Shown here: positions 433-18,301 of the stretch, in pieces
Position numbering within the stretch: position 1 is the first letter of the stretch
How the letters are laid out: every line of letters begins with the position of its first letter
NCBI GenBank assembly: GCA_028708075.1
Contig: JAQVZS010000002.1
Span: forward strand, 1 to 64,000
Reading direction: 5' to 3'
DNA length: 64,000 nucleotides
Source: Massilibacteroides sp.
Lineage (GTDB): Bacteria > Bacteroidota > Bacteroidia > Bacteroidales > Tannerellaceae
Notes under the pieces: model-generated
Databases searched by the model: none
Seen by the model: the letters and a program-made list of their open reading frames with translations, nothing else
Told to the model about the DNA's origin: nothing
Position numbers and translations under genes: made by a program

Positions 433-3400
433 CTATTTTAATTGTACCAAATCCATTAATTTATCGTAGTTATCGACTACATCATACCTCACTTCATTAT
501 TGTTGATTTCCACAAAATGCACCCGGGCGCAATGTGTTTTCAAATTTTCGGTTCCACGCAACTCTATAGAAGAGTTCGAGCCTTTTGTCTCTGCGACAAA
601 GTAGATATACCGAACCTTTTCTTTATCAAAGACAATTGCCCAGTCGGGACTATAACGTCCTACAGGTGTAGTTATATAAAAGCTTTTTGGTAATTTGGCA
701 TATACAACCACTTCGACTGCCTGATCCAATGCCTTGGCAAATTCTGTTTCTATTCGTGAATCAGAAGTCAGGTAGTCATAAATATGCTTTTTAAGATTGA
801 TAGCATTACGAAGGGCTGTGTTGTCATTAGTGAACACTGTTTTTGCATCGTATTCTTCTTCAATCTTGTGGTAAACGATATTATTGATAATCAAACTGGC
901 CTTTGCTTCATTGATAATCTTACTACATTTGGCAATAAACTCTTCGGGATTCTTGCGCAGCAGATAAAACTTATCTTCCCGTATCTTTTGTAAAATATTA
1001 ACAATTGTACGGCGAGTAAGATTTGTCAGGTTCTCTATTTCTCCGACAATGTCATATACAGTGTTATAGTAGGGATTGCTTTTTAATCTGAAACGTTCTT
1101 GTTCAGATTGTGTAAAATGTGTTCCGCGATCCAAATCTTCTTTCGAACCATCTTCTTTTTGTTCCCCGGTCTTTACTTCATAAGCCATATCGGCAATGTG
1201 CAAATCTCTATTTATGAGCAATGCGCTCTCAGATATGAGCTTTGGCGTATCGAAATAAACTTCATAAATTGTTTTCAAGCTAATTTTCTTCCATAACTCC
1301 TGAAACTCCTTCTTCTTAAAGTTAGCATTTGTACGAAGCATAATCGTTGCTCGTTCGTTTTCAGGCTTAAATGCTGTTTCAGTATATATAGATTTCAGAA
1401 GATTGGCTATAGAATCCCGATAAGGCTCTAAATTTTCCGGTAAAGGCATTGTTCCCTTCTCTATATGTTCTTTTCCTTCTTCTGTAATCTTATCTTCTTC
1501 GTCAATAATATCTGTTTTGTAGAGAAGCTTGTTTAATTTCTTAGCATCATCGGATGTAAGGCGATATTTTTCTCCTTTTTTATTCTCCACTATTTTATTT
1601 ATAAAGAATTCCACTTCGGCTTTCCGCGGACGTTCTTTCAATGTAGAAGTGATTTCGCTTTGTAATCCTTTCGCAAAGGCTTCATAACTCTCAGACGCGA
1701 TGACTGTCAGTTTATTTATTTCATGCACTTGGTCGCCAATCATTTCATAATCCAGGCGAACACCGTCCTGATTAACACACAAACGCATACCACGCCCAAC
1801 TTCTTGCCTGCGACGAATTTCACTACTGCCTTCGGGATTCTTGAGCGTACATATCTGGAATACATTCGGGTTATCCCAGCCTTCTTTCAACGCAGAGTGA
1901 GAAAAGATAAAACGGGTTGGTTCTTCAAAACTCAATAGCCGCTCTTTATCTTTCATAATCAAGTCGTATGCCGAAACATCATCCGATTCTTCGGTGTTCT
2001 TTTTCAACGAAGGGTCAACCATCCGCTTTTTCTTTTTGTCAATAGCGAAATAGCCGTCGTGGATACGATGCGCATCATCCCTCTCCAAATAATTGAAATA
2101 ACTTGGAAAGTAACCTTTGTGCACTTTGCTAATGTCGGTTTCTTTCAGGTATTCGTTATACTCTTGTTGAAAAAGATCGAGAAAATCATTTTTTGCATTG
2201 TTGTATTCTTCTTCGAATATTTTTGCATACTCGCCCAATCCCTCTTCTCCGTTTTCGTCATAGATACGGTACTTATCTACTGAATCAATAAAGAAAAGCG
2301 TCAACACTTTAATGCTTTTGTCAAAAAGTTGTTTCTCTTTCTTCAAGTGCGACAGAATTGTTTCCCGAATTTGAACACGCCGGAAAGTACTTTCTTCCTG
2401 GTCATTCAGAATATCCCCGGGATAAATATCTTTTCCGCTGACAACGATTTTATTCTGTGCCCCGTTGATTTCTTCAATCATCAGGTTACGATAGGCAGGC
2501 ATTTCTCCGGAACGTTCATACAAACTTTCTCCTTGTTCCAATTTTTTCCGAAGACGTTTTACTCCTTGCGTACTTCGTTGCTCAAATTCAATTAGAGCTA
2601 CAGGCGGTTTGGACGAACTTAATATTATTTGTTCCAGATAAAGATAACCGCTTGTCCCGGTAGATCCCTTTAGGTTAATACCTTTTACTTGTATCTTCTT
2701 TACAAGACGTTTGTTGTAAGCATCCAGCGCATCAAGACGATATACTTTGTTATATTCTACCTTGTGAGTCGCCGAATAACGTAACGTAAACAATGGTTTA
2801 AAATCCTGCATGCTTTCCAGTGTCTTTTTGCCATCTACAGATTGAGGTTCATCAATAATCAGTATCGGATTCGTTTGCGAAATAATCTCAATCGGTTTTC
2901 TTGTTCCGAATTGGTCGAGTTCCTGATAGATACGGCGGGCATCCGCTCCACGGGCGTTAAACGCCTGTGTGTTGATAATCATCACGCTAATCCGGTTGTC
3001 GGAAGCGAAATTCTCTATATCCTGCGGACTGCTTGAATTGTAGATAAACGGAGCAATCTTGTGTCCATATAATTCCTGAAAGTGGTCTTGTGTTACTTGA
3101 AACGATTTATACACACCTTCACGGATGGCGATACTCGGAACAATCACAATGTATTTACTCCAACCGTATTTTTTGTGCAGCTCATACATGGTACGGATAT
3201 AGGTATAAGTTTTACCCGTACCGGTTTCCATTTCAATGGTCAGGTTGTAGCCTGAGTGTATGCCTTCCGGACGTTCGATATACTGACTTTCGTGTATCTC
3301 ATTCTTGTTTTGGTTTTTCTTTATATTATCCAAGACAAGCGATTCCGGTATTTGTATCGGACTGTTGCGATAGCCAATATCTTCGTATATATCTTTTTCA

Positions 3401-3564
3401 AATAGTTCGTTTGCGCCAATCGCAGCCTGCTTTGCTTTACGAATAATCTCTTTGCTCCGTACAAGCGTAAAGCGATTGGTCTTCAAAGGTTGTCCTTCAA
3501 AACAATCCACTACGGCTTTGACGGCATCTATCTGGAATTGCTGCTCTTTGAATTGTAATTTCAT
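433..3564 (-). CDS. res: Type III restriction endonuclease subunit R (DEAD/DEAH helicase plus C-terminal nuclease)
   Basis: 1043 aa. Walker A METGTGKTYT, DEPQ box ILIIDEPQ, SHSALKEGWDNPNVFQI, motif VI RRRQEVGRGMRL, C-terminal PD-(D/E)xK-like SPDWAIV...FVAETKG. Confidence 0.93.
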   Translation of the reverse strand: MKLQFKEQQFQIDAVKAVVDCFEGQPLKTNRFTLVRSKEIIRKAKQAAIGANELFEKDIYEDIGYRNSPIQIPESLVLDNIKKNQNKNEIHESQYIERPEGIHSGYNLTIEMETGTGKTYTYIRTMYELHKKYGWSKYIVIVPSIAIREGVYKSFQVTQDHFQELYGHKIAPFIYNSSSPQDIENFASDNRISVMIINTQAFNARGADARRIYQELDQFGTRKPIEIISQTNPILIIDEPQSVDGKKTLESMQDFKPLFTLRYSATHKVEYNKVYRLDALDAYNKRLVKKIQVKGINLKGSTGTSGYLYLEQIILSSSKPPVALIEFEQRSTQGVKRLRKKLEQGESLYERSGEMPAYRNLMIEEINGAQNKIVVSGKDIYPGDILNDQEESTFRRVQIRETILSHLKKEKQLFDKSIKVLTLFFIDSVDKYRIYDENGEEGLGEYAKIFEEEYNNAKNDFLDLFQQEYNEYLKETDISKVHKGYFPSYFNYLERDDAHRIHDGYFAIDKKKKRMVDPSLKKNTEESDDVSAYDLIMKDKERLLSFEEPTRFIFSHSALKEGWDNPNVFQICTLKNPEGSSEIRRRQEVGRGMRLCVNQDGVRLDYEMIGDQVHEINKLTVIASESYEAFAKGLQSEITSTLKERPRKAEVEFFINKIVENKKGEKYRLTSDDAKKLNKLLYKTDIIDEEDKITEEGKEHIEKGTMPLPENLEPYRDSIANLLKSIYTETAFKPENERATIMLRTNANFKKKEFQELWKKISLKTIYEVYFDTPKLISESALLINRDLHIADMAYEVKTGEQKEDGSKEDLDRGTHFTQSEQERFRLKSNPYYNTVYDIVGEIENLTNLTRRTIVNILQKIREDKFYLLRKNPEEFIAKCSKIINEAKASLIINNIVYHKIEEEYDAKTVFTNDNTALRNAINLKKHIYDYLTSDSRIETEFAKALDQAVEVVVYAKLPKSFYITTPVGRYSPDWAIVFDKEKVRYIYFVAETKGSNSSIELRGTENLKTHCARVHFVEINNNEVRYDVVDNYDKLMDLVQLK

Positions 3565-3568
3565 TATA

Positions 3569-4741
3569 TCATGCTTGTTGGGCTCGAGGGATTTTTACGA
3601 TAAATTGCTCTCCAGCTATATCATTGATCAATTCAATATCGGGCTGTTGGGCTACTGCTCTTTTGATACCGGAACCTAAGCCACTATATGGCATCGTGTG
3701 AGAAGAAAACATCGCTATCTGATTATTACGTATTACTGTATTACCATATTTAATATCATCTATTGTTAAGCTATTAGGGAGTTTCCCCGGACTAACAATT
3801 TCTACTCTATTGTCAAATATTATTATTTTTATCGGTGCATTTTTAAAGTAGTCACGGTGTATCAAGGCATTTTGCAACAACTCAGTCAAAACAATCTCCG
3901 ATATTTCCAAAATACCGACAGAATTAAATTCCTGTCTTTGTTGTGTGTGATGTAGATTACTTCGTAAGAAGTTCATGCTTTGCTTAAACAATTCTGGAAT
4001 AGTTCCTTTTAAATCTTCGGGCTTGTTTCTATAGGAGTTACCTGCAATATCATTTCCAAAAAATGAAACGATTTTTATCGTAAACGCAGGCTTTATGTTT
4101 TGCGGGTCTTTGCCGAAGAATAATAAACCGGCAAGAGAAACTTTATCATTTCGCAAAACTCGTTTTGCTCTTAACGCCTCTTCATAAGTCAATCCTTTTT
4201 CCTGATAGGAGACTTTAAATTCTTTTTTGAAATAATCAGCAAACAATCTTTCATCTATATCGTCAATGGTCGTATCGTATACCTCCATTTCATCTGCAAA
4301 TAAATTACTGCTTTGTTGGAAAAGCCGCATTATTTCAGAGTTGTCAATTAATTTTCTCTTATCAGAACCTTGTTTTACCCATATCGTACCACTATTATCT
4401 TTATATGGTTTATTTACACCTTCATCGACATAAACCACTAAAATCTTATTTTCTCCTGTTTCAGAAGTGATTTTTACTACTTCTGTTGAAATGAAAATCT
4501 GAGGTTTTATCTTGTCGTTGGCAATATTGGCCAGTCGGTTGTTATAGGATTGTAATTGTTCATAAGTAAGCCCCATGACTTCCCCTGTTTTATCTTTTAC
4601 ACCCACAAGAATAACACCTCCTTTTGAGTTTGACATAGCTATCATTTCAGCTGCAAATTTATCATCATCCATTTCTTGTTTAAACTGAACCTTGCTGGTC
4701 TCGCCGGAACTTATTATATCTAATAATTCTATTGCATTCAT
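3569..4741 (-). CDS. AlbA_2 (Schlafen-type) ATP-binding protein with HATPase_c_4-like C-terminal part
   Basis: KVQFKQEMDDDKFAAEMIAMSNSKGGVILVGVKDKTGEVMGL is an AlbA_2 N-terminus. LTELLQNALIHRDYFKNAPIKIIIFDNRVEIVSPGKLP matches HATPase_c_4/RecG-related proteins. Start trimmed to MNAIELL (4741) from the ORF start at 4759. Confidence 0.85.
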   Translation of the reverse strand: MNAIELLDIISSGETSKVQFKQEMDDDKFAAEMIAMSNSKGGVILVGVKDKTGEVMGLTYEQLQSYNNRLANIANDKIKPQIFISTEVVKITSETGENKILVVYVDEGVNKPYKDNSGTIWVKQGSDKRKLIDNSEIMRLFQQSSNLFADEMEVYDTTIDDIDERLFADYFKKEFKVSYQEKGLTYEEALRAKRVLRNDKVSLAGLLFFGKDPQNIKPAFTIKIVSFFGNDIAGNSYRNKPEDLKGTIPELFKQSMNFLRSNLHHTQQRQEFNSVGILEISEIVLTELLQNALIHRDYFKNAPIKIIIFDNRVEIVSPGKLPNSLTIDDIKYGNTVIRNNQIAMFSSHTMPYSGLGSGIKRAVAQQPDIELINDIAGEQFIVKIPRAQQA

Positions 4742-7341
4742 CGTTTTCCGTCCTCCCAAATTTTATATATATTTTTCCTTATATCAAAAGCCTCTTGTCC
4801 GCCTTCCATAATCCGAATTATTTTTTCTTGAATATTCTGGCAATCAATACTTCCGCTTTCTATCTTAATTTCACTATCGGGCACATATTGGCAGGCGACT
4901 AACATTTCACTATCGCCTAATACCGGAATGTTAGCGTTATGAGTCGCAAATATAAACTGCATTTGCCCCTTCAATCGTTTTATTTCACGAATAACATCCT
5001 CGTAAATGGTTTGATTGTCCAAATCATCTTCCGGCTGATCTATAATCAATATGTCATTTTCCTTTTGAGACAAAAGGAACAATATTAGAGCAGAGGCGCG
5101 TTGTCCTAATGAATGTTTTTCCAATGGCTTTCCATCGAAGTTTATGACTATCTGATTAGGCACTTTGTAAGTCAGTAAGTCGTATCGATTAGCCTCAAAT
5201 CGGGTTTTCGCTTCAATCAATTGGTTTTCGGTTAGCCTATCGGACAATTTACGAAAATCATCTTTTCGCATATCAACAAAATCGGCATAGTCATTGCTGA
5301 TTGAAATATAAGTTGCTTCATTTATGCGTGAACCTCTAAAAACCTCTTGGAGTTTAGAGATAAATTTATCCTTTCTCCCCTTATAATTGACCTCAATAAA
5401 TAGTTTGCCGCCTATTTCGTTTATCCTGCTTACTTCAACTTTCAATAGATTAAATTTCTCGTACCATAATTTATCCAATGTGTTTACAGCCTCATTTAGC
5501 AAGTGTTCTGCCTCAATCCTCTTACCTTCCGATTTCTCAATTTCAATAAGTTTAAGCTTCGAGGTTTCAAGCTCTCTATTTATCTTAATAAAGTCATCCG
5601 GATTAAGTTCCGGTATGTTTATCTCTCGTTTAATTCGCGCAAACTCTTCTTTTAATTCTTCCTTCTTTGCTTTAAGTTTATCTATAACAGCCGTAAATTC
5701 AATCGCAATTTTCTGAGCATCCGAATAGGTCGCTTTTACTTGCTCTAATGTAGTCTTTAATTTAAGAATTAAAGATTTCGCTTCTTCAAATATTTCCGGA
5801 TTTGTTTTAGATTCAAGTTCTTTATTAAGAGTATATTCATTATTTTGAATGATTGCCTGAAAATCATTCAGATAATTATCTATTCCTCCTTTGAAGTTTA
5901 GCAAACGATTAATATCTGATTCAAATGAGGTTTGCAATTGCAACTTTTCCGCGATTCCTTTCTCTTTGAATAAATTGAGTTTATGTTCTGCATTTGCTTT
6001 TGCTATTTCAGTTTCTTTTTTCAATTGAGACAGATTCCCAAATCCCTTAAGTTCATTTATGATTCGTTGAATTTCTGTTTTTTGATTTCCAATCCTTGTT
6101 TGTATATCATTGAACTTGCTTCCTACAAGTTTATTGACTAGATCATTCTCAAAATCAGCATTCTTGCTCGATAAGTCTTTTTGTCCAAAATAGATGGGTT
6201 GCTGAAGAATGGCATCTAAGGTAATCCCTTGTTGCAATATGTTATCTTTGTAAATATCTTCTTTTTGACCGTATATGCGTTCTACCTTGTAAATTACCCC
6301 ATGTCTATCTACTACTTCAACGATTGCCTTTCCTCCACTCTTTAATACGTGTTTAATTAAATCGTCTTTGTAATCCTTATCGGCAGCTTGCGAGCCAAAA
6401 GGAATATTCAGCGCATACCTCACAATTTCGAGGATAGATGATTTGCCACTTCCTCTTATCCCAATCAAATTATTTAATTCGGGAGAAAAATAGAGATGCT
6501 TTCCGCCTAACAATCCGCCTTGGAAAGTAATTGATTTTATATATGAATTCTCAGATTCATGATTACTGCTTTCAGAACAACGATTTTTCGAGTCTATCAA
6601 GGCGAATTTTATTGCTTCGAAATTGAAATCTCCAATTTTCATAAAACAAGCTTCACCTTTCCCTATGTCGTTAATCGATTTAGGATCGCTCCCTTCCACA
6701 AAGCATGGAACTTTATTATTTAACCAAGTATTCAGATTGTTTTTCAAATCATTGGTTCTCATTTTCTGAAATCCAATTACCGATTTCCGGAATAAGGGAT
6801 CATTCCCTAAGTCAATAATTCGTCCTCCGTCAAACTCCTTTAATAAGCCGCTATTCTGTTCTACGTGAGCCATTATAATAAAAAAGCCTTTGTCCATTTT
6901 ATCCAATTGCAATAAAGTTTCCTTCAAGCTATGATTAGACCGACCGTTTTCATTTTCATAATTATGCCTGCCAGCAAAACAGGTCGTAATGAATTGATTA
7001 ATATAATCATTGCCGTCTGCAAGCCAATGATTTGGGTCGAAAACGACTAATGTATGAACACCGTTAGCGCCATCGTTAACAGACAGTTCAACTCCCGGAA
7101 GAATATAAACACCTTCCTTGCGCGCTTTTTTGGCAATAGCTTTATATTCGCCTGAATCAAATTTATTGTGATTGGTAATAACTCCAACTCGAATATCCTG
7201 TTCTACAAGTTTATCGACATAAGCGTTTACAAACTCGTTTTCTTCTCCGGTGTATGTAAATTCTTTGTCTGCTTTCGTGTGCAAATGGAAGTCTGCACGC
7301 AACCAAGTAGTGCCGTTTTGGAATAATGTACTTGTATCCAT
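4738..7341 (-). CDS. PHP-domain / SMC-like ABC ATPase (TrlF-family, Ppl-like defence protein)
   Basis: N-terminal PHP motifs ADFHLHTKADKEF, VITNHNKF, ILPGVELSV, IMAHVEQNSG, VEGSDPKS. ATPase Walker A LIGIRGSGKSSILE, coiled-coil middle, signature SLGQRASALILFLL, Walker B DILIIDQPEDDLDN, H-loop ATHNANIPVLGDSE. Confidence 0.85.
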   Translation of the reverse strand: MDTSTLFQNGTTWLRADFHLHTKADKEFTYTGEENEFVNAYVDKLVEQDIRVGVITNHNKFDSGEYKAIAKKARKEGVYILPGVELSVNDGANGVHTLVVFDPNHWLADGNDYINQFITTCFAGRHNYENENGRSNHSLKETLLQLDKMDKGFFIIMAHVEQNSGLLKEFDGGRIIDLGNDPLFRKSVIGFQKMRTNDLKNNLNTWLNNKVPCFVEGSDPKSINDIGKGEACFMKIGDFNFEAIKFALIDSKNRCSESSNHESENSYIKSITFQGGLLGGKHLYFSPELNNLIGIRGSGKSSILEIVRYALNIPFGSQAADKDYKDDLIKHVLKSGGKAIVEVVDRHGVIYKVERIYGQKEDIYKDNILQQGITLDAILQQPIYFGQKDLSSKNADFENDLVNKLVGSKFNDIQTRIGNQKTEIQRIINELKGFGNLSQLKKETEIAKANAEHKLNLFKEKGIAEKLQLQTSFESDINRLLNFKGGIDNYLNDFQAIIQNNEYTLNKELESKTNPEIFEEAKSLILKLKTTLEQVKATYSDAQKIAIEFTAVIDKLKAKKEELKEEFARIKREINIPELNPDDFIKINRELETSKLKLIEIEKSEGKRIEAEHLLNEAVNTLDKLWYEKFNLLKVEVSRINEIGGKLFIEVNYKGRKDKFISKLQEVFRGSRINEATYISISNDYADFVDMRKDDFRKLSDRLTENQLIEAKTRFEANRYDLLTYKVPNQIVINFDGKPLEKHSLGQRASALILFLLSQKENDILIIDQPEDDLDNQTIYEDVIREIKRLKGQMQFIFATHNANIPVLGDSEMLVACQYVPDSEIKIESGSIDCQNIQEKIIRIMEGGQEAFDIRKNIYKIWEDGKR

Positions 7342-7352
7342 AATTTTACTTT

Positions 7353-9269
7353 TTAAATCACTTTCATTTCCGTTTCCGGGCTTAACTGTTTCAACAACTG
7401 CTGTACATTGATTTTTGCCGTATCACTGGCAAAGCCATTATCGCGAAAAACAAGACGCATTGGTTTTTCTTTCGCTATTTCTTTGGCGAAAGCTTCATCT
7501 ATGCCTTTGTCAAAGCAAGCAAAGAGTGAATCCTGTGCAACTTTAAATACCAGCTTGCCATTTATTGTAGCTTGTTCAATCTTGTACGAAAGCGGAAGCC
7601 CCCAATCGAGCATCACCTGTGCCAGCAAGTCATCCGGCGTGCGGTCGGGTTTGATATTGTCATCAAATAGATCAAGTGTTTCCTGTTTATAATCTTGCGG
7701 ACGATAATACACATCCTGCATATTGCTGTCGGCTAAGCGATAAACACGGAAACCGTAGTCTTGCGTATCTTCAAAATCGGCAAACATGCCTTCTTTTTCG
7801 GCTTTGGCACGCTTTTCTTCTTTTATTTTATTGGCCGCACGGCGAATACGTTCTTTGCCTATATCACAGATGTTTTTGTATCCGGCTTTGTAGGCTTCGC
7901 TGTTTTCATCGGTGGTTTCGGGAAGTTGTACCATGATGTATTTTCGGCTGCCTCCGTCTTCAGCGTTTAGTTGCATCACTGCATGGGCTGTGGTGGCGGA
8001 ACCGGAAAAGAAATCGAGAATAATTGAATCTTGTTGAGTATTAGCAAGTGTAAGCAAACGACGAAGCAAACGTACTGGTTTAGGACCATCAAAAGCTCCA
8101 GCTTCAAGTAAAGCCGTGACTTCTTTTGCTCCTTCTTGGCTATGTCCAACATCTTTATAAAACATAATTGAAGTTGGAGCCATTCCATCAAATTTCAATT
8201 CAGTTAAGAATCTTTTTATGGAAGGGACACTATTTCCCTCTATACCAAACCATATCCTATTATCTTGGAGTCTCTCCAAAAAAGCTTTTTTGGAGAGACT
8301 CCAACAGCGTCCTGTTGGAGGCTCAATTATACGCCCAGAGGGCGTCGTAATTTGATAATCACATTCCGAGTTGTACGTTTTAACGGACATATCGCTCGCT
8401 TTCCAGACCCCACGAGGATCGTTGTCCGGATTTGAATAACGCGCATTCGCTTCTTCAGTGCGAGAAAGACGTCCTATTTGGAAGTTCTCTATAGACTTAG
8501 TGTACATCAATACATAATCATGACTATTAGATATGTATTTAGCATCATTTTTGGGTGCATAAGCTCTTTCCCATACAAGTTCTCCCACAAAATTACTTTC
8601 TCCGAACACTTCATCACAAATTTTCCTCAAATTATGGACTTCATTATCATCAATCGAAATAAAAATCACTCCATCCTCAGTCAATAGATTCCTTGCCAAC
8701 TTCAACCGTGGATACATCATGCTTAACCAATCGGAATGATAACGCCCCGAAGCTTCCGGATTGGCAACCAACCGGCGATTGTATTCGTCAATCTGCCCAC
8801 TTTCAAACAATTCTTCTTCTTTATCTCCGGTAAAATTATCCTTATACACAAAGTCATTTCCTGTATTGTAGGGTGGGTCAATGTATATCATCTTGATTTT
8901 ACCGAAGTAGCTTTCCTGCAAAATTTTCAGAACTTCAAGGTTGTCACCCTCTATGTAGAGATTTTCCGTATTGTCAAAATCGACCGAATCTTGCCGTATC
9001 GGACGGAGTGTTTTTGTTGTCGGCAGGTTTGCGGTAACAACAGCTTCACGTTTTCCCGGCCACTCCAAACGGTAGCGTTCGCGGTTACCTTCAATGACCG
9101 CATGACTCAATTCCTGTTTCAGTAAGTCGAAGTCTATCACTTTTCCGTCGGCACTCTCCGTTACGCAATTCGGAAACAAAGCAGCCAGTTTCTCGAAGTT
9201 CTCGTTGACCAAGTCGGGACTTTGCAGGTCAAGTTTATCTATACTCATATCGATCTCTTCCTTTTTCAT
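7353..9269 (-). CDS. mod: Type III site-specific DNA-methyltransferase (Mod)
   Basis: IYIDPPYNTGNDFVYKDNF (DPPY motif), SDWLSMMYPRLKLARNLLTEDGVIFISIDDNE, ILDFFSGSATTAHAVMQLN (motif I-like). Start trimmed to MKKEEIDM at 9269 so it follows the upstream HTH gene. Confidence 0.93.
   Translation of the reverse strand: MKKEEIDMSIDKLDLQSPDLVNENFEKLAALFPNCVTESADGKVIDFDLLKQELSHAVIEGNRERYRLEWPGKREAVVTANLPTTKTLRPIRQDSVDFDNTENLYIEGDNLEVLKILQESYFGKIKMIYIDPPYNTGNDFVYKDNFTGDKEEELFESGQIDEYNRRLVANPEASGRYHSDWLSMMYPRLKLARNLLTEDGVIFISIDDNEVHNLRKICDEVFGESNFVGELVWERAYAPKNDAKYISNSHDYVLMYTKSIENFQIGRLSRTEEANARYSNPDNDPRGVWKASDMSVKTYNSECDYQITTPSGRIIEPPTGRCWSLSKKAFLERLQDNRIWFGIEGNSVPSIKRFLTELKFDGMAPTSIMFYKDVGHSQEGAKEVTALLEAGAFDGPKPVRLLRRLLTLANTQQDSIILDFFSGSATTAHAVMQLNAEDGGSRKYIMVQLPETTDENSEAYKAGYKNICDIGKERIRRAANKIKEEKRAKAEKEGMFADFEDTQDYGFRVYRLADSNMQDVYYRPQDYKQETLDLFDDNIKPDRTPDDLLAQVMLDWGLPLSYKIEQATINGKLVFKVAQDSLFACFDKGIDEAFAKEIAKEKPMRLVFRDNGFASDTAKINVQQLLKQLSPETEMKVI
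8265..8304. repeat. Perfect 40-bp palindrome inside mod
   Basis: TTGGAGTCTCTCCAAAAAAG|CTTTTTTGGAGAGACTCCAA. The right 20 nt are the exact reverse complement of the left 20 nt. An adjacent 9-bp-arm inverted repeat CTCCAACAG-CGTC-CTGTTGGAG occupies 8299-8320. Confidence 0.97.
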
Positions 9270-9282
9270 CGTATTTTCTCTA

Positions 9283-9492
9283 CTACTTAGTCTCTTTTGA
9301 AGAGACAAGCAATTCCTTAATATCCACATTCAGCACTTTCGCTATCGCTAAAAGCGTATCTAACGAAGGTTGCGTTTCATTGGTACACCAACGGGAAATA
9401 GTCGCTTCATTCTTCCCTAATGTTTCTGCCAGCCATTTGCCGGTTCGCTTTTGTTCCACCAGAACAACCTTAAGCCTATTTATTTCTTTCAT
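9283..9492 (-). CDS. Small helix-turn-helix (XRE-family) transcriptional regulator
   Basis: MKEINRLKVVLVEQKRTGKWLAETLGKNEATISRWCTNETQPSLDTLLAIAKVLNVDIKELLVSSKE is a typical HTH_3 domain. Start trimmed from 9570. It lies directly upstream of mod on the same strand. Confidence 0.85.
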   Translation of the reverse strand: MKEINRLKVVLVEQKRTGKWLAETLGKNEATISRWCTNETQPSLDTLLAIAKVLNVDIKELLVSSKETK

Positions 9493-12733: not shown

Positions 12734-14248
12734 TCAGAAAACGATGCCGGCGGATAAGCTGTATTGGTAATTCGTTAGATTTCCTACCCATGATGCGTAA
12801 TTGCCTTCGGCTTTCAGGTAAAGGGTTCGGTTTTGAGGAAGCGTATAATCTGCTCGCAATGAACAAGTACAGGAAGTCTTGTTTTCGGATAAGTATGCAT
12901 AATTATTCCGAAGTATTTGTGTTACGTATCTCTCTTCGGAAAGTCCGGTAAGCAGAATTTCCCGGTCTATGTTTTTCCGGATGGTAATGCCTGTTGTGGC
13001 ATGGAAAAGCAGTTTTTTCAATGGAAAGGAAAGATGTACGTCTGCTTTACCGTATCCATTCGTAAATGTCATTTTCCGAATAGGATCCAGATAGTTTTCG
13101 TTTGATTGTTCTATGCCGAATAGAGGAATAATATACCAGGACAATAACTGATTTTTTTCTACACCATACAGGAACGATAGTTCTGCTTGAGTTATTTCGT
13201 GCGTATAAAGTGAAGCGGAACTGATTTTTTCATAAATATTACTTTGAGGAATGGAAAAACGATGTTCCGTTCCTTCTCTTTTTCTTCTTTGGACTTGAAT
13301 TTTTGCAACCCAATGTTTTTCTGCTTTTGTTTTCCGGAAGCAAGCGTTGATTGCGTATTTTTTTTCAGAGATTTCGGATATGGGTAGGTAAAGTAAATTG
13401 CTGACTTGTTTTTCGTACTGAAAATGCTGATAATCCAGATCGATAAGCAATCCCTGTCCTGATACAGGCAAAAGTTGTAATGCCGCTCCATAGGTGTTTC
13501 CATTGTATAGGATCTTATAGGCGTTTTGTTTCCCGGCAAATAGATACATGTCCGTTCCTAAGCCGGAAGAATGGTAAACGGTGGGTATACCAATGTTACT
13601 GCGAAAAACAATGCTGTTCTTTTGTTTGTATTTACGTAGAATAAGATTTCCTCCTAAAGCGTATTTAGTATTTATTTGATAGTTTATCCCCAGGTGTAAT
13701 AATAAATCCGAAACGGTATTATCGGGCCGAGGATCTTTTGTGCGATATTGTTGTAAAGCTCTGTACGCTAATTGTAATCCCCACGTGATGCGATCGTTGC
13801 TTTGAGCATAACCTCCCTCAAAGGTATATTCTTCATTATGAAGGTTATTGCCTCCAACCGTATCACTCATCACATAGGGATATACAAGGGTATAATCTGC
13901 GCTTTCGTTCCATTTTACTTGATCTTTTTTCCTGTTTTTATACTCGACATTTCCCCAAAGTGTTTTATTTCCGAGTTTTTGAACCGTTACGGCCTGAAGA
14001 GCAAATTGATTTTTCAGAAATCCTTCCTGCGCTAAAAAAGCTTCGTGATCCGAACGGGTCATCGTTGTTTTTAGTTCGGTGTATTCCGGATAATTCAAAA
14101 TGGGCATCACCGCCGGGTTGTGCTGGACAAAATCGATCATGTGCGTCAAAGGGGATAAGCGTTTCTGTATCCTTACAGAGATCGTATCTTCTGCATGGAT
14201 CATAATAAACGGGAAAAAAACTAAAATAAACAAGAAAAGAAAGCGCAT
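12734..14248 (-). CDS. DUF6850-family-like outer-membrane beta-barrel protein
   Basis: 504 aa with signal peptide. Amphipathic beta-strand pattern, C-terminal aromatic (SLSAGIVF). Sits next to TonB receptor and DUF4876-like genes. Confidence 0.6.
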   Translation of the reverse strand: MRFLFLFILVFFPFIMIHAEDTISVRIQKRLSPLTHMIDFVQHNPAVMPILNYPEYTELKTTMTRSDHEAFLAQEGFLKNQFALQAVTVQKLGNKTLWGNVEYKNRKKDQVKWNESADYTLVYPYVMSDTVGGNNLHNEEYTFEGGYAQSNDRITWGLQLAYRALQQYRTKDPRPDNTVSDLLLHLGINYQINTKYALGGNLILRKYKQKNSIVFRSNIGIPTVYHSSGLGTDMYLFAGKQNAYKILYNGNTYGAALQLLPVSGQGLLIDLDYQHFQYEKQVSNLLYLPISEISEKKYAINACFRKTKAEKHWVAKIQVQRRKREGTEHRFSIPQSNIYEKISSASLYTHEITQAELSFLYGVEKNQLLSWYIIPLFGIEQSNENYLDPIRKMTFTNGYGKADVHLSFPLKKLLFHATTGITIRKNIDREILLTGLSEERYVTQILRNNYAYLSENKTSCTCSLRADYTLPQNRTLYLKAEGNYASWVGNLTNYQYSLSAGIVF

Positions 14249-14268
14249 CTCTAAAAACGTTTAAAAGA

Positions 14269-15486
14269 TTATTTCAGTGTAATCGGGGTCTGCGGATTAA
14301 AATCCAGCTTCGAATTATTCGTATCCATTAATACTTCACGTCCGTCAATGGTTCCGGCGACTTTACGCTGTACGCTCTTTCCATATCTTTCCGGGTCTTT
14401 ATCGATTGTTCCGCTGTATGTCCAGCCCATATCTAATGAAGGGTCGGTCACGATCCATTGGAATTCTGATTCCACGCTGAGGTTTACCGCGTCTTCGATC
14501 CATTCGTTCGGGATTTTGTAATAATCGTCGTCCAAGTCGAATGACCATTCTTCAAAAACAAATACCCAACTGCAGGTGTAAACATAATCTTTCAGATAGG
14601 TGTCCGTGTCGACCCCCAAGCGGCCTAATACGTAGCTTTTAAATCCGCGGTTGTGAATAACCATGTTCCCCATAATATTCTTCATGTTGGGAACATCGGG
14701 GTTATCCGTGTCGCTCATATTCGAATTATTATAAATAATCTCGAAATCAGCCTTGCTTAAGTCAATGGAATTAGAATTAATCTCTTTATAGTTGACCGCA
14801 TCGATTGCAATAATAAACGATCCTCCCGGTGTTATCGGATGGTCGGTTCCGGAGCCAGGAACCATAATCATGGAAGAAGCCGTGAAATGGGTAGATAGGA
14901 TATCCGGCGTATACGTTTGTTTATCTACTGTCAGGAACTCGGAATCCGAAATAAACAATCCGTCGGCATATAAAGTCTCATCCGAATTGTTGTAAATAAT
15001 AAAATATTGGTCGGACGTTTGTAGCCCTTCCGGCGTAAGCGATCCGGAAAAGAAGATTTCCTTAAATACAAATCCGGCGGTAGACGGAGAATAAATAAAC
15101 GAGCTGGCATTTTCGCTTAGCGTTTCGCCGGTAACGACAAGTGCTGCGATGTATGCGCGTATCGGTTTAGAAACGGTTTCGCCATCCACTGAATATTCCG
15201 CCGTTCCTTCCGCTGTAATTTCATAGGTACCTTCGTTTACCGTGAAAGATAATGTTGTTCCGTTGACGACGGCATCTTTAATTTCGGATGCTGTGCCGGT
15301 ATTTTTTTCTTTTACAGATAAAACAATATCCGTTAAGGCCGTATATGTAATCCCTTCCGGAGGGGTTATGAGGAGATTTAAGTTTGTCTTGTTCACGGCA
15401 GGAACATCGTCATCGTCACTGCAGGATATAAAGAAAGATGCGGTTAAGCCCAGCATCAAACAAAAAGTAAATAATTTAATTTTCAT
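14269..15486 (-). CDS. DUF4876-like lipoprotein
   Basis: Lipobox FFISCSDDDD. NLLITPPEGITYTALTDIVLSVKEKNTG, FKEIFFSGSLTPEGLQTSDQYFIIYNNSDETLYADGLFISDSEF is DUF4876-like. Confidence 0.7.
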   Translation of the reverse strand: MKIKLFTFCLMLGLTASFFISCSDDDDVPAVNKTNLNLLITPPEGITYTALTDIVLSVKEKNTGTASEIKDAVVNGTTLSFTVNEGTYEITAEGTAEYSVDGETVSKPIRAYIAALVVTGETLSENASSFIYSPSTAGFVFKEIFFSGSLTPEGLQTSDQYFIIYNNSDETLYADGLFISDSEFLTVDKQTYTPDILSTHFTASSMIMVPGSGTDHPITPGGSFIIAIDAVNYKEINSNSIDLSKADFEIIYNNSNMSDTDNPDVPNMKNIMGNMVIHNRGFKSYVLGRLGVDTDTYLKDYVYTCSWVFVFEEWSFDLDDDYYKIPNEWIEDAVNLSVESEFQWIVTDPSLDMGWTYSGTIDKDPERYGKSVQRKVAGTIDGREVLMDTNNSKLDFNPQTPITLK

Positions 15487-15517
15487 AAGAGTTCTATTTT
15501 TTTAGTGAATACTATCG

Positions 15518-18301
15518 TTATATTTTAATTGTTAATTCAGCTCCGAAATAAGGCGAAGAACTGCGTTTTATGGTGACGTTATTGGCTTTGTAATCTGGCA
15601 AATAATCTAAGATACGGTTCACGAATAAGGATATCCGGAAAGTATCTTTGAACAGTTTGGACATTTTGAAATTGACGTACATACCGAAGGGTACTTTTTC
15701 TGTCATAAATTGTGATTCGTTTACTCGTATAATGAGCCATTGTAAGCGGGTGTCTTCGGCTTCGGCTTCTGTATACGGGTGTTCATTTCCTGCCGGGTCA
15801 ATATAGGCGAACGGCACTCCGCTGTAAGGTTTTGTTCTTTTTTTATAGAACCAAGTACATTGAAATGATGTGGAAAATTCCAGATCTAAATTGGGGATAT
15901 AGGTATCCAGCATGAAATTCGTGTTGAATTGTTCCCGAAAATATCCGCCGGTAGATTCATAGATTCCTATTTCCTGGATAGCTTTTCCTTCAATCAACTG
16001 GCTTGTCCCTTTATAGAGGGGAATACTGTTGTCGTAATTTGTGCGAAACCAAGCTCCATTTACCGTCATTCGAGTTTTTAGCCAATCCAAACGTTTTGTT
16101 GAGAGTGTGAATTCGACTCCTTCTTTTAACGTTGCGCTTCCGTTCGTGTAGGCAGAAAACAGCATCAAGAGTGTATCTGTTTCAAAAGGGACAGACGTTA
16201 GATCTGGCGGGCCGGTTAATTCGGACGAGTTGATTGCCGATTGATCGTATATTTTACGGATTTGTGATTGGGTTTTAATGGCTTCCTTTCGGAAACCGTT
16301 GGTCATTTTTTCCCGGAAATATGTGACTGAAAAATTAGTATTATCGTATGACAAATTCAAACGCATTTCCCATTTCCGGTTAACAGCCGGCTCCAAGTTG
16401 TAATTGATGATTTTATTTTTATATGTTATCAGATTGATGCGTCGGAATTCCGGATTATTATGATAGTAGTTTAACTGGACATGGTCATTATAGATAAAGT
16501 CCGGATACAGTTGCAAAAGTGTTGGCGTTTTTTGGTGCCAGCCTATTCCGCCGGAAAAGGAAAGAATAAGTGGTTTTTCTTTTAATTGAAAAGCAGGAAA
16601 AGTCCATTCGGCGTTTAGGCGCGGATCGAAATACCATTTTTCGTTCATTTTGTATTCTTTGGCTAAGTTAATAATGCTCATTCCCCGTATCCCGGCATTA
16701 ACTTGTAACCGGTTTCTTCCAACAGGAATACCGATTTTATCTTCTACGAAAAAAGCAAGTTCTTCTCCGGCCGGGATGTCCGAATACTTGCGTGGTCGTG
16801 TTGTCATATCCGGACTTGGCGGAAGATTAACGTCGTAAATCTGGCCTTTGCCGAAGTTCTTATCGTATGTCCATTTCATTCCGGCCAGCAGATTATGTAT
16901 AATACCGGCTGTTTTAACATTCATATCGGCTGTTAATTGTGCGAAAAGCGAAAGCGGTTTGCCATCTATGGTTTGTTCGGATATCCAGTTGGCTGGTAGA
17001 TAAATGCCATCTGATTCTCCCTGTTCTGTAGCATTGGGAATGGCTGTTGGCGTAAGAAGTTGAACAAATTTAGTCTGTTTTATTTTATCTAATTCGTAAG
17101 AAGCGGAAGTGATTAGTTCTATTTTTTTTAAAAAGAGCTTTTTTTCAAACGCCCACGATAAGGTGTTGCCCCAGGCAAATCGATTATAGCCCGAATTGTA
17201 TTTATTTGTCAGATTATATCCGATATCCGGATCAGTCTTCACATCGTCCAAGGTGTGTCCGAAATCGACATTGGAATTCCAAATCAAACGAGATGTTTCC
17301 CTCTTATTCCATTCGCGGTTTAAACGAAAAGAGGCATTCAGGCGTTGGTAATTGGTGTAACTGTCGGTTGGAGAACTTTTCGCATCTAAAAAATCCAATC
17401 CGATATTTATATTTGTATTTTCATTCAGGCGAAATCCTTTACTTAAGGCAAATAATTTGGAATTTACATCCGCCTTGAACCGTCCTTCCAATTTCGAAGG
17501 ACCTTTTTTCCGTTCGATTTTTATCAAACCGCTGGTCAGATTTCCATACTTTACGGAAGGAATTCCCCGAACAATCTCTACCCGTTCGATCTGATCCGTA
17601 GAAATTGCCCGCATATCGATGCCACGATTTACTGTATTTCTGCTTTGATTGGCGTAAGATCCATTATTGATTATTATTTCCGGCCCGGCTGTGGTTTGCA
17701 TGTTTGCGTTTGTTGAAATTGGTGAACCATCGATAACAAAGGAAGTCCCTAAAGAAGAAGTGTTATATTTGTTTTGGCTGTCACTTATACTAACGCCTCT
17801 TAGTTCAATAGTTTGCGCCGCAGTAAGTGCTGGATCGGATGCTGAACCGCCGGGTAATAATTCCAATAAATCTTTGAAACTGGATGGCTGCAAATGCTCC
17901 ATAGCTTTGCGGTCGATAACCGAAGAACTCGTTATCCCCCTGGATTCCGAAGCGGTAACGATCACTTCATTCAGACTGTTGATGGTTGAAGTCAGTCGAA
18001 TAGTCAATCTTTCGTCTGCAATTAACTTGATCGTCTGTTCAAAAGGTTTATAAGCTACGTACGAAACCATGAGTTTGTAAGAACCATGAATGATTCCATT
18101 GAGCAAAACCATTCCGTTTTCATCGCTGATAGCACTGTAATTTCGATCTTCACCGTATAAAAAAACAGCTGCGTATTCTAATGGGATTACTTGCTTATCA
18201 TCTTGAATATGAAGAACCAAATTGCACGTATTTTTTCTATTTTCAGCCTGTGATGAGAGGATGAATAAGCTAAATAAGAATATAAGAATACGCGTTTTCA
18301 T
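15518..18301 (-). CDS. TonB-dependent receptor with carboxypeptidase-like regulatory N-terminal domain
   Basis: Signal peptide, carboxypeptidase-like domain, plug (INSLNEVIVTASESRGITSSSVIDRKAMEHLQPSSFKDLLELLPGG), long beta-barrel. Confidence 0.9.
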   Translation of the reverse strand: MKTRILIFLFSLFILSSQAENRKNTCNLVLHIQDDKQVIPLEYAAVFLYGEDRNYSAISDENGMVLLNGIIHGSYKLMVSYVAYKPFEQTIKLIADERLTIRLTSTINSLNEVIVTASESRGITSSSVIDRKAMEHLQPSSFKDLLELLPGGSASDPALTAAQTIELRGVSISDSQNKYNTSSLGTSFVIDGSPISTNANMQTTAGPEIIINNGSYANQSRNTVNRGIDMRAISTDQIERVEIVRGIPSVKYGNLTSGLIKIERKKGPSKLEGRFKADVNSKLFALSKGFRLNENTNINIGLDFLDAKSSPTDSYTNYQRLNASFRLNREWNKRETSRLIWNSNVDFGHTLDDVKTDPDIGYNLTNKYNSGYNRFAWGNTLSWAFEKKLFLKKIELITSASYELDKIKQTKFVQLLTPTAIPNATEQGESDGIYLPANWISEQTIDGKPLSLFAQLTADMNVKTAGIIHNLLAGMKWTYDKNFGKGQIYDVNLPPSPDMTTRPRKYSDIPAGEELAFFVEDKIGIPVGRNRLQVNAGIRGMSIINLAKEYKMNEKWYFDPRLNAEWTFPAFQLKEKPLILSFSGGIGWHQKTPTLLQLYPDFIYNDHVQLNYYHNNPEFRRINLITYKNKIINYNLEPAVNRKWEMRLNLSYDNTNFSVTYFREKMTNGFRKEAIKTQSQIRKIYDQSAINSSELTGPPDLTSVPFETDTLLMLFSAYTNGSATLKEGVEFTLSTKRLDWLKTRMTVNGAWFRTNYDNSIPLYKGTSQLIEGKAIQEIGIYESTGGYFREQFNTNFMLDTYIPNLDLEFSTSFQCTWFYKKRTKPYSGVPFAYIDPAGNEHPYTEAEAEDTRLQWLIIRVNESQFMTEKVPFGMYVNFKMSKLFKDTFRISLFVNRILDYLPDYKANNVTIKRSSSPYFGAELTIKI

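Follow-up and report, generated by a model that had tools for sequence, protein, structure and literature searches.

The window is a stretch of 64,000 nucleotides from the start of contig JAQVZS010000002.1 of Massilibacteroides sp. (assembly GCA_028708075.1). It carries a five-gene operon at 433-9492. All five genes lie on the minus strand, with near-zero gaps, in the order XRE regulator, mod, TrlF, TrlG (AlbA_2), and res:

9283-9492, minus strand: XRE-family HTH regulator, 69 aa from an ATG start; first gene of the operon (HTH_3, E 3.4e-11)
7353-9329, minus strand: type III methyltransferase Mod, 658 aa (N6_N4_Mtase; PADLOC MTase_III, 835 bits)
4738-7341, minus strand: TrlF, a PHP phosphoesterase fused to a Rad50/SMC-like ABC ATPase, 867 aa (NCBIfam TrlF_fam_ATP)
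3569-4741, minus strand: TrlG, an SLFN_AlbA_2 domain plus a GHKL-type HATPase_c_4 domain, 390 aa
433-3564, minus strand: type III endonuclease Res, 1043 aa (ResIII and RE_endonuc; PADLOC REase_III, 947 bits)

The sequence-only reading had described five tightly packed minus-strand genes, and their positions and identities hold up in the open reading frames and in the Pfam, NCBIfam, and PADLOC matches. An alternative ATG for mod at 9269 gives a protein of 638 aa and a gap of 13 nt to the HTH gene. With this start, the spacings proposed earlier are reproduced from the ORF coordinates: 13 nt, then 11 nt between mod and TrlF, an ATGA overlap between TrlF and TrlG, and 4 nt between TrlG and res.

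Mod retains its DPPY motif at residue 151 and FSGSA at 441, with a target-recognition domain at about 241-450. Res is made up of a helicase and a PD-(D/E)XK endonuclease domain, and its TGTGKT, GRGMR, and PD...ExK motifs are intact. By these motifs and domains, mod and res are predicted to form a type III restriction-modification (R-M) system within one operon. The trlFG stretch (about 4000-7000) has a G+C content of 34-35%, compared with 38-42% across most of mod and res, which is a weak hint of a mosaic origin.

The contig starts at window position 1, on the downstream side of res. A perfect 10-bp inverted repeat, GTTCCGCCAA / TTGGCGGAAC, is located near this contig end at 51-60 and 82-91. 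Of two genomes of the same genus, one (G031) has the neighboring symporter gene and no other surrounding DNA in common with the window, and the other (G032) has no symporter gene.

TrlF belongs to the TrlF family NF045780, with a score of 511.9 bits where the cut-off is 350. Its ATPase motifs are intact (Walker A GIRGSGKS, signature LGQR, Walker B IIDQPEDD). The PHP domain has an HLH motif and conserved metal ligands H19, H21, H58, E85, H159, and D219. A structure model (mean pLDDT 85) matches the heads of SMC, Rad50, RecF, Wadjet, and Lamassu proteins, and the ATPase part also matches Mre11-Rad50 complexes. On the strength of this model, TrlF may sense or process abnormal DNA. The anti-phage protein Ppl (NF042955) likewise combines a PHP domain with an SMC-like ATPase, and its model matches TrlF with an E-value of 1.3e-47. 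TrlF nevertheless lies outside the Ppl family, at 162.3 bits against a cut-off of 1000, and the Ppl model includes no AlbA_2 partner, unlike TrlF with TrlG. The earlier suggestion that the PHP and SMC-like ATPase is a TrlF-family, Ppl-related protein is supported.

TrlG is recognized by its AlbA_2 domain at 14-131, its HATPase_c_4 domain at 302-366, and its position directly after trlF; no curated NCBIfam model for TrlG was matched. In its structure model (mean pLDDT 89), both domains find a match in bacterial DIP2311 (3lmm). By sequence, fold, or both, the N-terminal domain resembles SLFN14, SLFN11, and the SAMD9 tRNase domain, and the C-terminal domain matches GHKL kinases.

In the sequence alignment, SLFN14 residues E206 and E211 correspond to TrlG E14 and Q19. 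E14 is invariant, while the second catalytic Glu is replaced by Q19 in all 36 aligned TrlG proteins (36/36). The same survey finds Glu at this position in more distant AlbA_2 proteins, two distant relatives among them. TrlG therefore lacks the complete AlbA_2 E...E...D triad of Schlafen-type RNases. It also differs from the Schlafen and SAMD9 AlbA_2 tRNases in having only one copy of AlbA_2, joined to a GHKL ATPase. Because Q19 is invariant, canonical Schlafen-type cleavage by TrlG is doubtful, and its assignment as an ordinary Schlafen tRNase is weakened. The AlbA_2 domain may instead bind RNA or use an altered chemistry.

The TrlF family takes its name from the "temperature restricting locus" (TRL) of Photorhabdus laumondii, which the accessible text of its description gives as an operon trlR-trlF-trlG (PMC7554251). 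According to that text, the trlG product has AlbA_2 at 14-128 and HATPase_c_4 at 298-365. Mutants that arose spontaneously and grew at 36 °C repeatedly carried loss-of-function changes in trlG and never in trlF. Deletion of the whole operon likewise relieves the growth arrest, and complementation brings the restriction back. The recorded changes S16N, A36V, P318R/L, N335D, and G354V correspond, judging from residue spacing through relatives, to S16, A35, P322, N339, and G358 in the window. The last four are invariant in the TrlG family alignment, and S16 is present in 30 of 31 sequences.

As far as this text goes, the Photorhabdus locus resembles the window in having the same TrlF family, trlF and trlG adjacent after a small regulator, and both domains of the AlbA_2 protein at nearly the same positions as in the window TrlG. 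It is without R-M genes, whereas the window pair lies inside a type III R-M operon, and its regulator is a 79-aa protein in place of the 69-aa XRE protein. The described phenotype is a thermal growth arrest and not phage-triggered; a phage role is not proposed in the accessible sections (PMC7554251). TrlG-dependent growth arrest is published for Photorhabdus only, and by analogy it may occur at the window locus. The missing trlF mutants, as reported there, fit either a TrlF that restrains TrlG or one that is dispensable for thermal arrest.

The regulator of Yersinia ruckeri pYR3 (L047, 7691-7930) is the syntenic counterpart of the 79-aa Photorhabdus protein and matches RptR (9R2Z) at 2e-34. 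This ties the RptR-controlled R-M islands (PMC12255303) to the Photorhabdus locus. Judged from this pYR3 counterpart, the Photorhabdus regulator is of the RptR family. The window regulator, whose PDB relatives are 3omt and 3bs3, falls outside that family. It is an XRE protein, and the names trlR and RptR are ruled out for it. TrlF and TrlG of pYR3 and Vibrio cidicii are nearly identical and their upstream regulators differ, so the regulator is exchangeable too.

The sequence-only reading had proposed a search for the mod-PHP/ATPase-AlbA_2-res order in Bacteroidota. The complete order, on one strand, recurs in five further genomes: L009 (= L066), L058, L079, L080, and L082. In L080, two extra genes follow TrlG within the arrangement, and in L003 mod-TrlF-TrlG is followed by the contig end. 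An order unique to the window genome is therefore ruled out, and the linkage of the inserted pair is conserved; recurrence in at least six other genomes means that the arrangement is not due to chance. The window's phylum was sampled evenly (396 genomes). A TrlF relative at E<=1e-30 is present in 12 of these, the window's own included, and a type III mod relative in 62. Judged from these two counts, finding both in a single operon goes far beyond what chance would give.

Mod of the window (7353-9329) and of L003 (6051-7988) are mostly 82-100% identical outside the target-recognition region and 12-37% identical inside it. The target-recognition domain has been exchanged, and TrlFG is consequently not bound to one recognition sequence. 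The HTH gene upstream of mod in L003 (5850-6028) is split over two frames, by a frameshift or an assembly error.

Type III mod and res had been taken to be normally adjacent, which fails in this mod family. The survey covered 26 Bacteroidota loci with mod before res, drawn from window-mod relatives in the even phylum sample (among L087-L117). At least one same-strand gene, mostly with small gaps, lies between mod and res in 23/26; this fraction is indicative, because these are best-scoring loci and phylogenetically non-independent. Mod and res are adjacent in the other three (L089, L096, L107), and two loci beyond the 26 (L108, L113) have an adjacent res-mod order. The inserted genes are often defense-related. 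Eight loci have PDC-M59A together with a Fic-containing protein, seven have YhcG/PDC-S02 (in one case alongside an AlbA_2 protein), and two have AAA plus DUF4276/HEC-01B. Others are GmrSD, PD-Lambda-4_A with AbiD, AlbA_2 with a ParA-like protein, Bro-N, and uncharacterized proteins. The tree of mod has at least five changes of TrlFG cargo.

With such a slot, TrlFG could be an independent defense system that shares a promoter and a position with R-M and has no trigger or function in common with it, the gap being a handy place of insertion. The unrelated genes held there elsewhere (YhcG/PDC-S02, PDC-M59A/Fic, GmrSD, AbiD with PD-Lambda-4_A, AAA with HEC-01B) favor this explanation. That one and the same pair was recruited repeatedly, into four different R-M classes, suggests a benefit of co-expression, although this is not decisive, and simple cargo is considered unlikely.

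These four classes are type I, type III, type IIG, and a methylase/helicase system. Type I embedding takes the form hsdR-TrlF-TrlG-hsdS-AAA-hsdM in IncC and related plasmids and in one Aeromonas record, and hsdM-hsdS-TrlF-TrlG-hsdR in V. cidicii. In L062, TrlFG comes after a type IIG gene. The operon of L067 is composed of XRE-TrlF-TrlG-Snf2/PLD helicase-methylase-ATPase; directly upstream of it is a 1038-aa reverse-transcriptase-like protein (14013-17129; DRT UG29-type match). Type I genes also lie near TrlFG in L060, L064, and L006; membership in the same operon is not clear there, and these loci were left out of the embedded count. Stand-alone TrlFG occurs in L005, L007, L010, L015, L057, L059, and L061 and on Pseudomonas plasmids.

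Three loci retain full-length TrlF and TrlG beside decayed R-M genes. In L014, 40 codons of the mod C-terminus are left between the HTH gene and TrlF. In L077, TrlF is preceded by a fragment of mod and TrlG is followed by one of res, and pYR3 has an hsdM relic. Between pYR3 and V. cidicii, dN/dS is 0.044 for TrlF and 0.031 for TrlG, on a divergence that mixes the time before and after R-M loss. The TrlF tree has at least seven switches between R-M-linked and unlinked states, and 10 by R-M class, a count in which L006 is labeled type I. By these comparisons of gene content, TrlFG is a module in its own right that has joined R-M systems again and again and outlasted them, since it occurs in several R-M contexts and in stand-alone loci and is full length where R-M has decayed. 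Its recurrence and its survival of R-M decay give the pair the look of a plug-in second defense line rather than of a standard part of the cutting enzyme.

The sequence-only reading had also raised a guard of the PrrC type. In a strict version, Mod/Res would physically keep TrlFG inactive and phage inhibition of R-M would free it. PrrC inside a type Ic locus is the precedent (PMC2610378), and the embedding of the pair with near-zero gene spacing fits it. PrrC/RloC (PMC2610378) also share with the window an ABC ATPase protein, putatively growth-stopping, that is encoded within an R-M operon. They are single-protein anticodon nucleases, whereas the window has two proteins, and a Pfam search finds no HEPN/anticodon-nuclease domain in TrlF or TrlG. 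TrlFG also persists without R-M, unlike the PrrC/RloC model of R-M linkage: it stands alone in many genomes and stays full length at the three loci with R-M fragments (L014, L077, pYR3). Its partners of four classes have no common subunit, and the target domain of its partner Mod has been exchanged. The genomic evidence thus shows no dependence of silencing on the linked R-M system. R-M as an antitoxin of TrlG is disfavored by the R-M decay with TrlFG kept, the context switches, and the Mod target-domain exchange, and the guard is very unlikely.

A further alternative makes the pair part of the cutting machinery. TrlF would process or degrade the DNA ends made by Res, in a Mre11-Rad50-like manner and through its PHP site, with TrlG as an accessory subunit. 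It draws on the conserved PHP metal ligands, the match of the ATPase fold to Rad50 and Mre11-Rad50 complexes, and the fact that every partner is a DNA-restriction system. Relatives without an R-M partner are common, however, and Photorhabdus TrlG affects growth with no phage or R-M trigger reported in the accessible text. This alternative is distinctly unlikely.

The preferred reading is an intact type III R-M operon that carries TrlFG as a self-contained, co-expressed growth-arrest layer of the abortive-infection type, with a probability of about 0.5. A second effector layer had been proposed earlier. It is plausible because the type III linkage is conserved, TrlF belongs to a defense-associated family, and the Photorhabdus relative stops growth; the accompanying idea that R-M holds the pair in check is not supported. 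TrlFG would be co-expressed with the R-M enzyme and not silenced by it, restriction being the first line and TrlFG the second. From its fold, TrlF would engage abnormal DNA, either ends or restriction/translocation intermediates, which would be the sole cue that all partner systems could produce. Where the DNA of an infected cell is still abnormal, TrlFG would halt growth, and TrlG, with its altered AlbA_2 and GHKL ATPase, would execute or gate the arrest. No defense or toxicity assay for the window operon or TrlFG was found in the literature searched.

A broader form of this reading is tentative, and its chances are put somewhat below even. TrlFG would be a restriction-agnostic growth-arrest plug-in responding to a DNA state that type I, III, and IIG restriction share, and the mod-res gap would be an exchangeable bay for second-layer effectors (TrlFG, YhcG, Fic, Abi, GmrSD).

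Effector genes embedded in R-M operons are known from the rlo genes. They are also known from PrrC (PMC2610378) and DarTG2 (PMC12255303). The type I embedding was published in 2025, in RptR-controlled islands with DarTG2 or a pair described as "AAA-like ATPase + RNA-binding protein" (PMC12255303). Those islands are type I and not type III, their regulator is RptR and not XRE, and the pair was left functionally unassigned, with the TrlFG name not used. No report of TrlF with type III R-M was found in the literature searched, which was without preprints and most subscription papers. As far as that search extends, three points are new: the placement of TrlFG within a type III R-M operon, the recognition that a single module spans four R-M classes, and the cargo bay between mod and res.

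These results connect type III R-M with the temperature-dependent growth-arrest locus of Photorhabdus and with the unnamed pair in type I R-M islands. This suggests that "temperature restriction" may be a by-product of an abortive-type defense module. With one pair shared by unrelated R-M classes, and with natural R-M decay at some loci, it becomes directly testable whether an embedded toxin depends on R-M as its antitoxin. The mod-res gap offers a simple rule for spotting new Bacteroidota defense genes.

The TrlF and TrlG genes overlap or nearly abut and travel as a pair. The pair is not obligatory, because solo TrlF and solo TrlG (L068-L070, L072) exist. TrlF is without TrlG on Listeria and Sulfitobacter plasmids (L043, L044), and a TrlF relative is also present in two Listeria phage-labeled records, OR846775 and OR848124. 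TrlG relatives without a TrlF neighbor are found in L068, L069, L070, L072, and L049, and those of L049 and L072 have a C-terminal extension.
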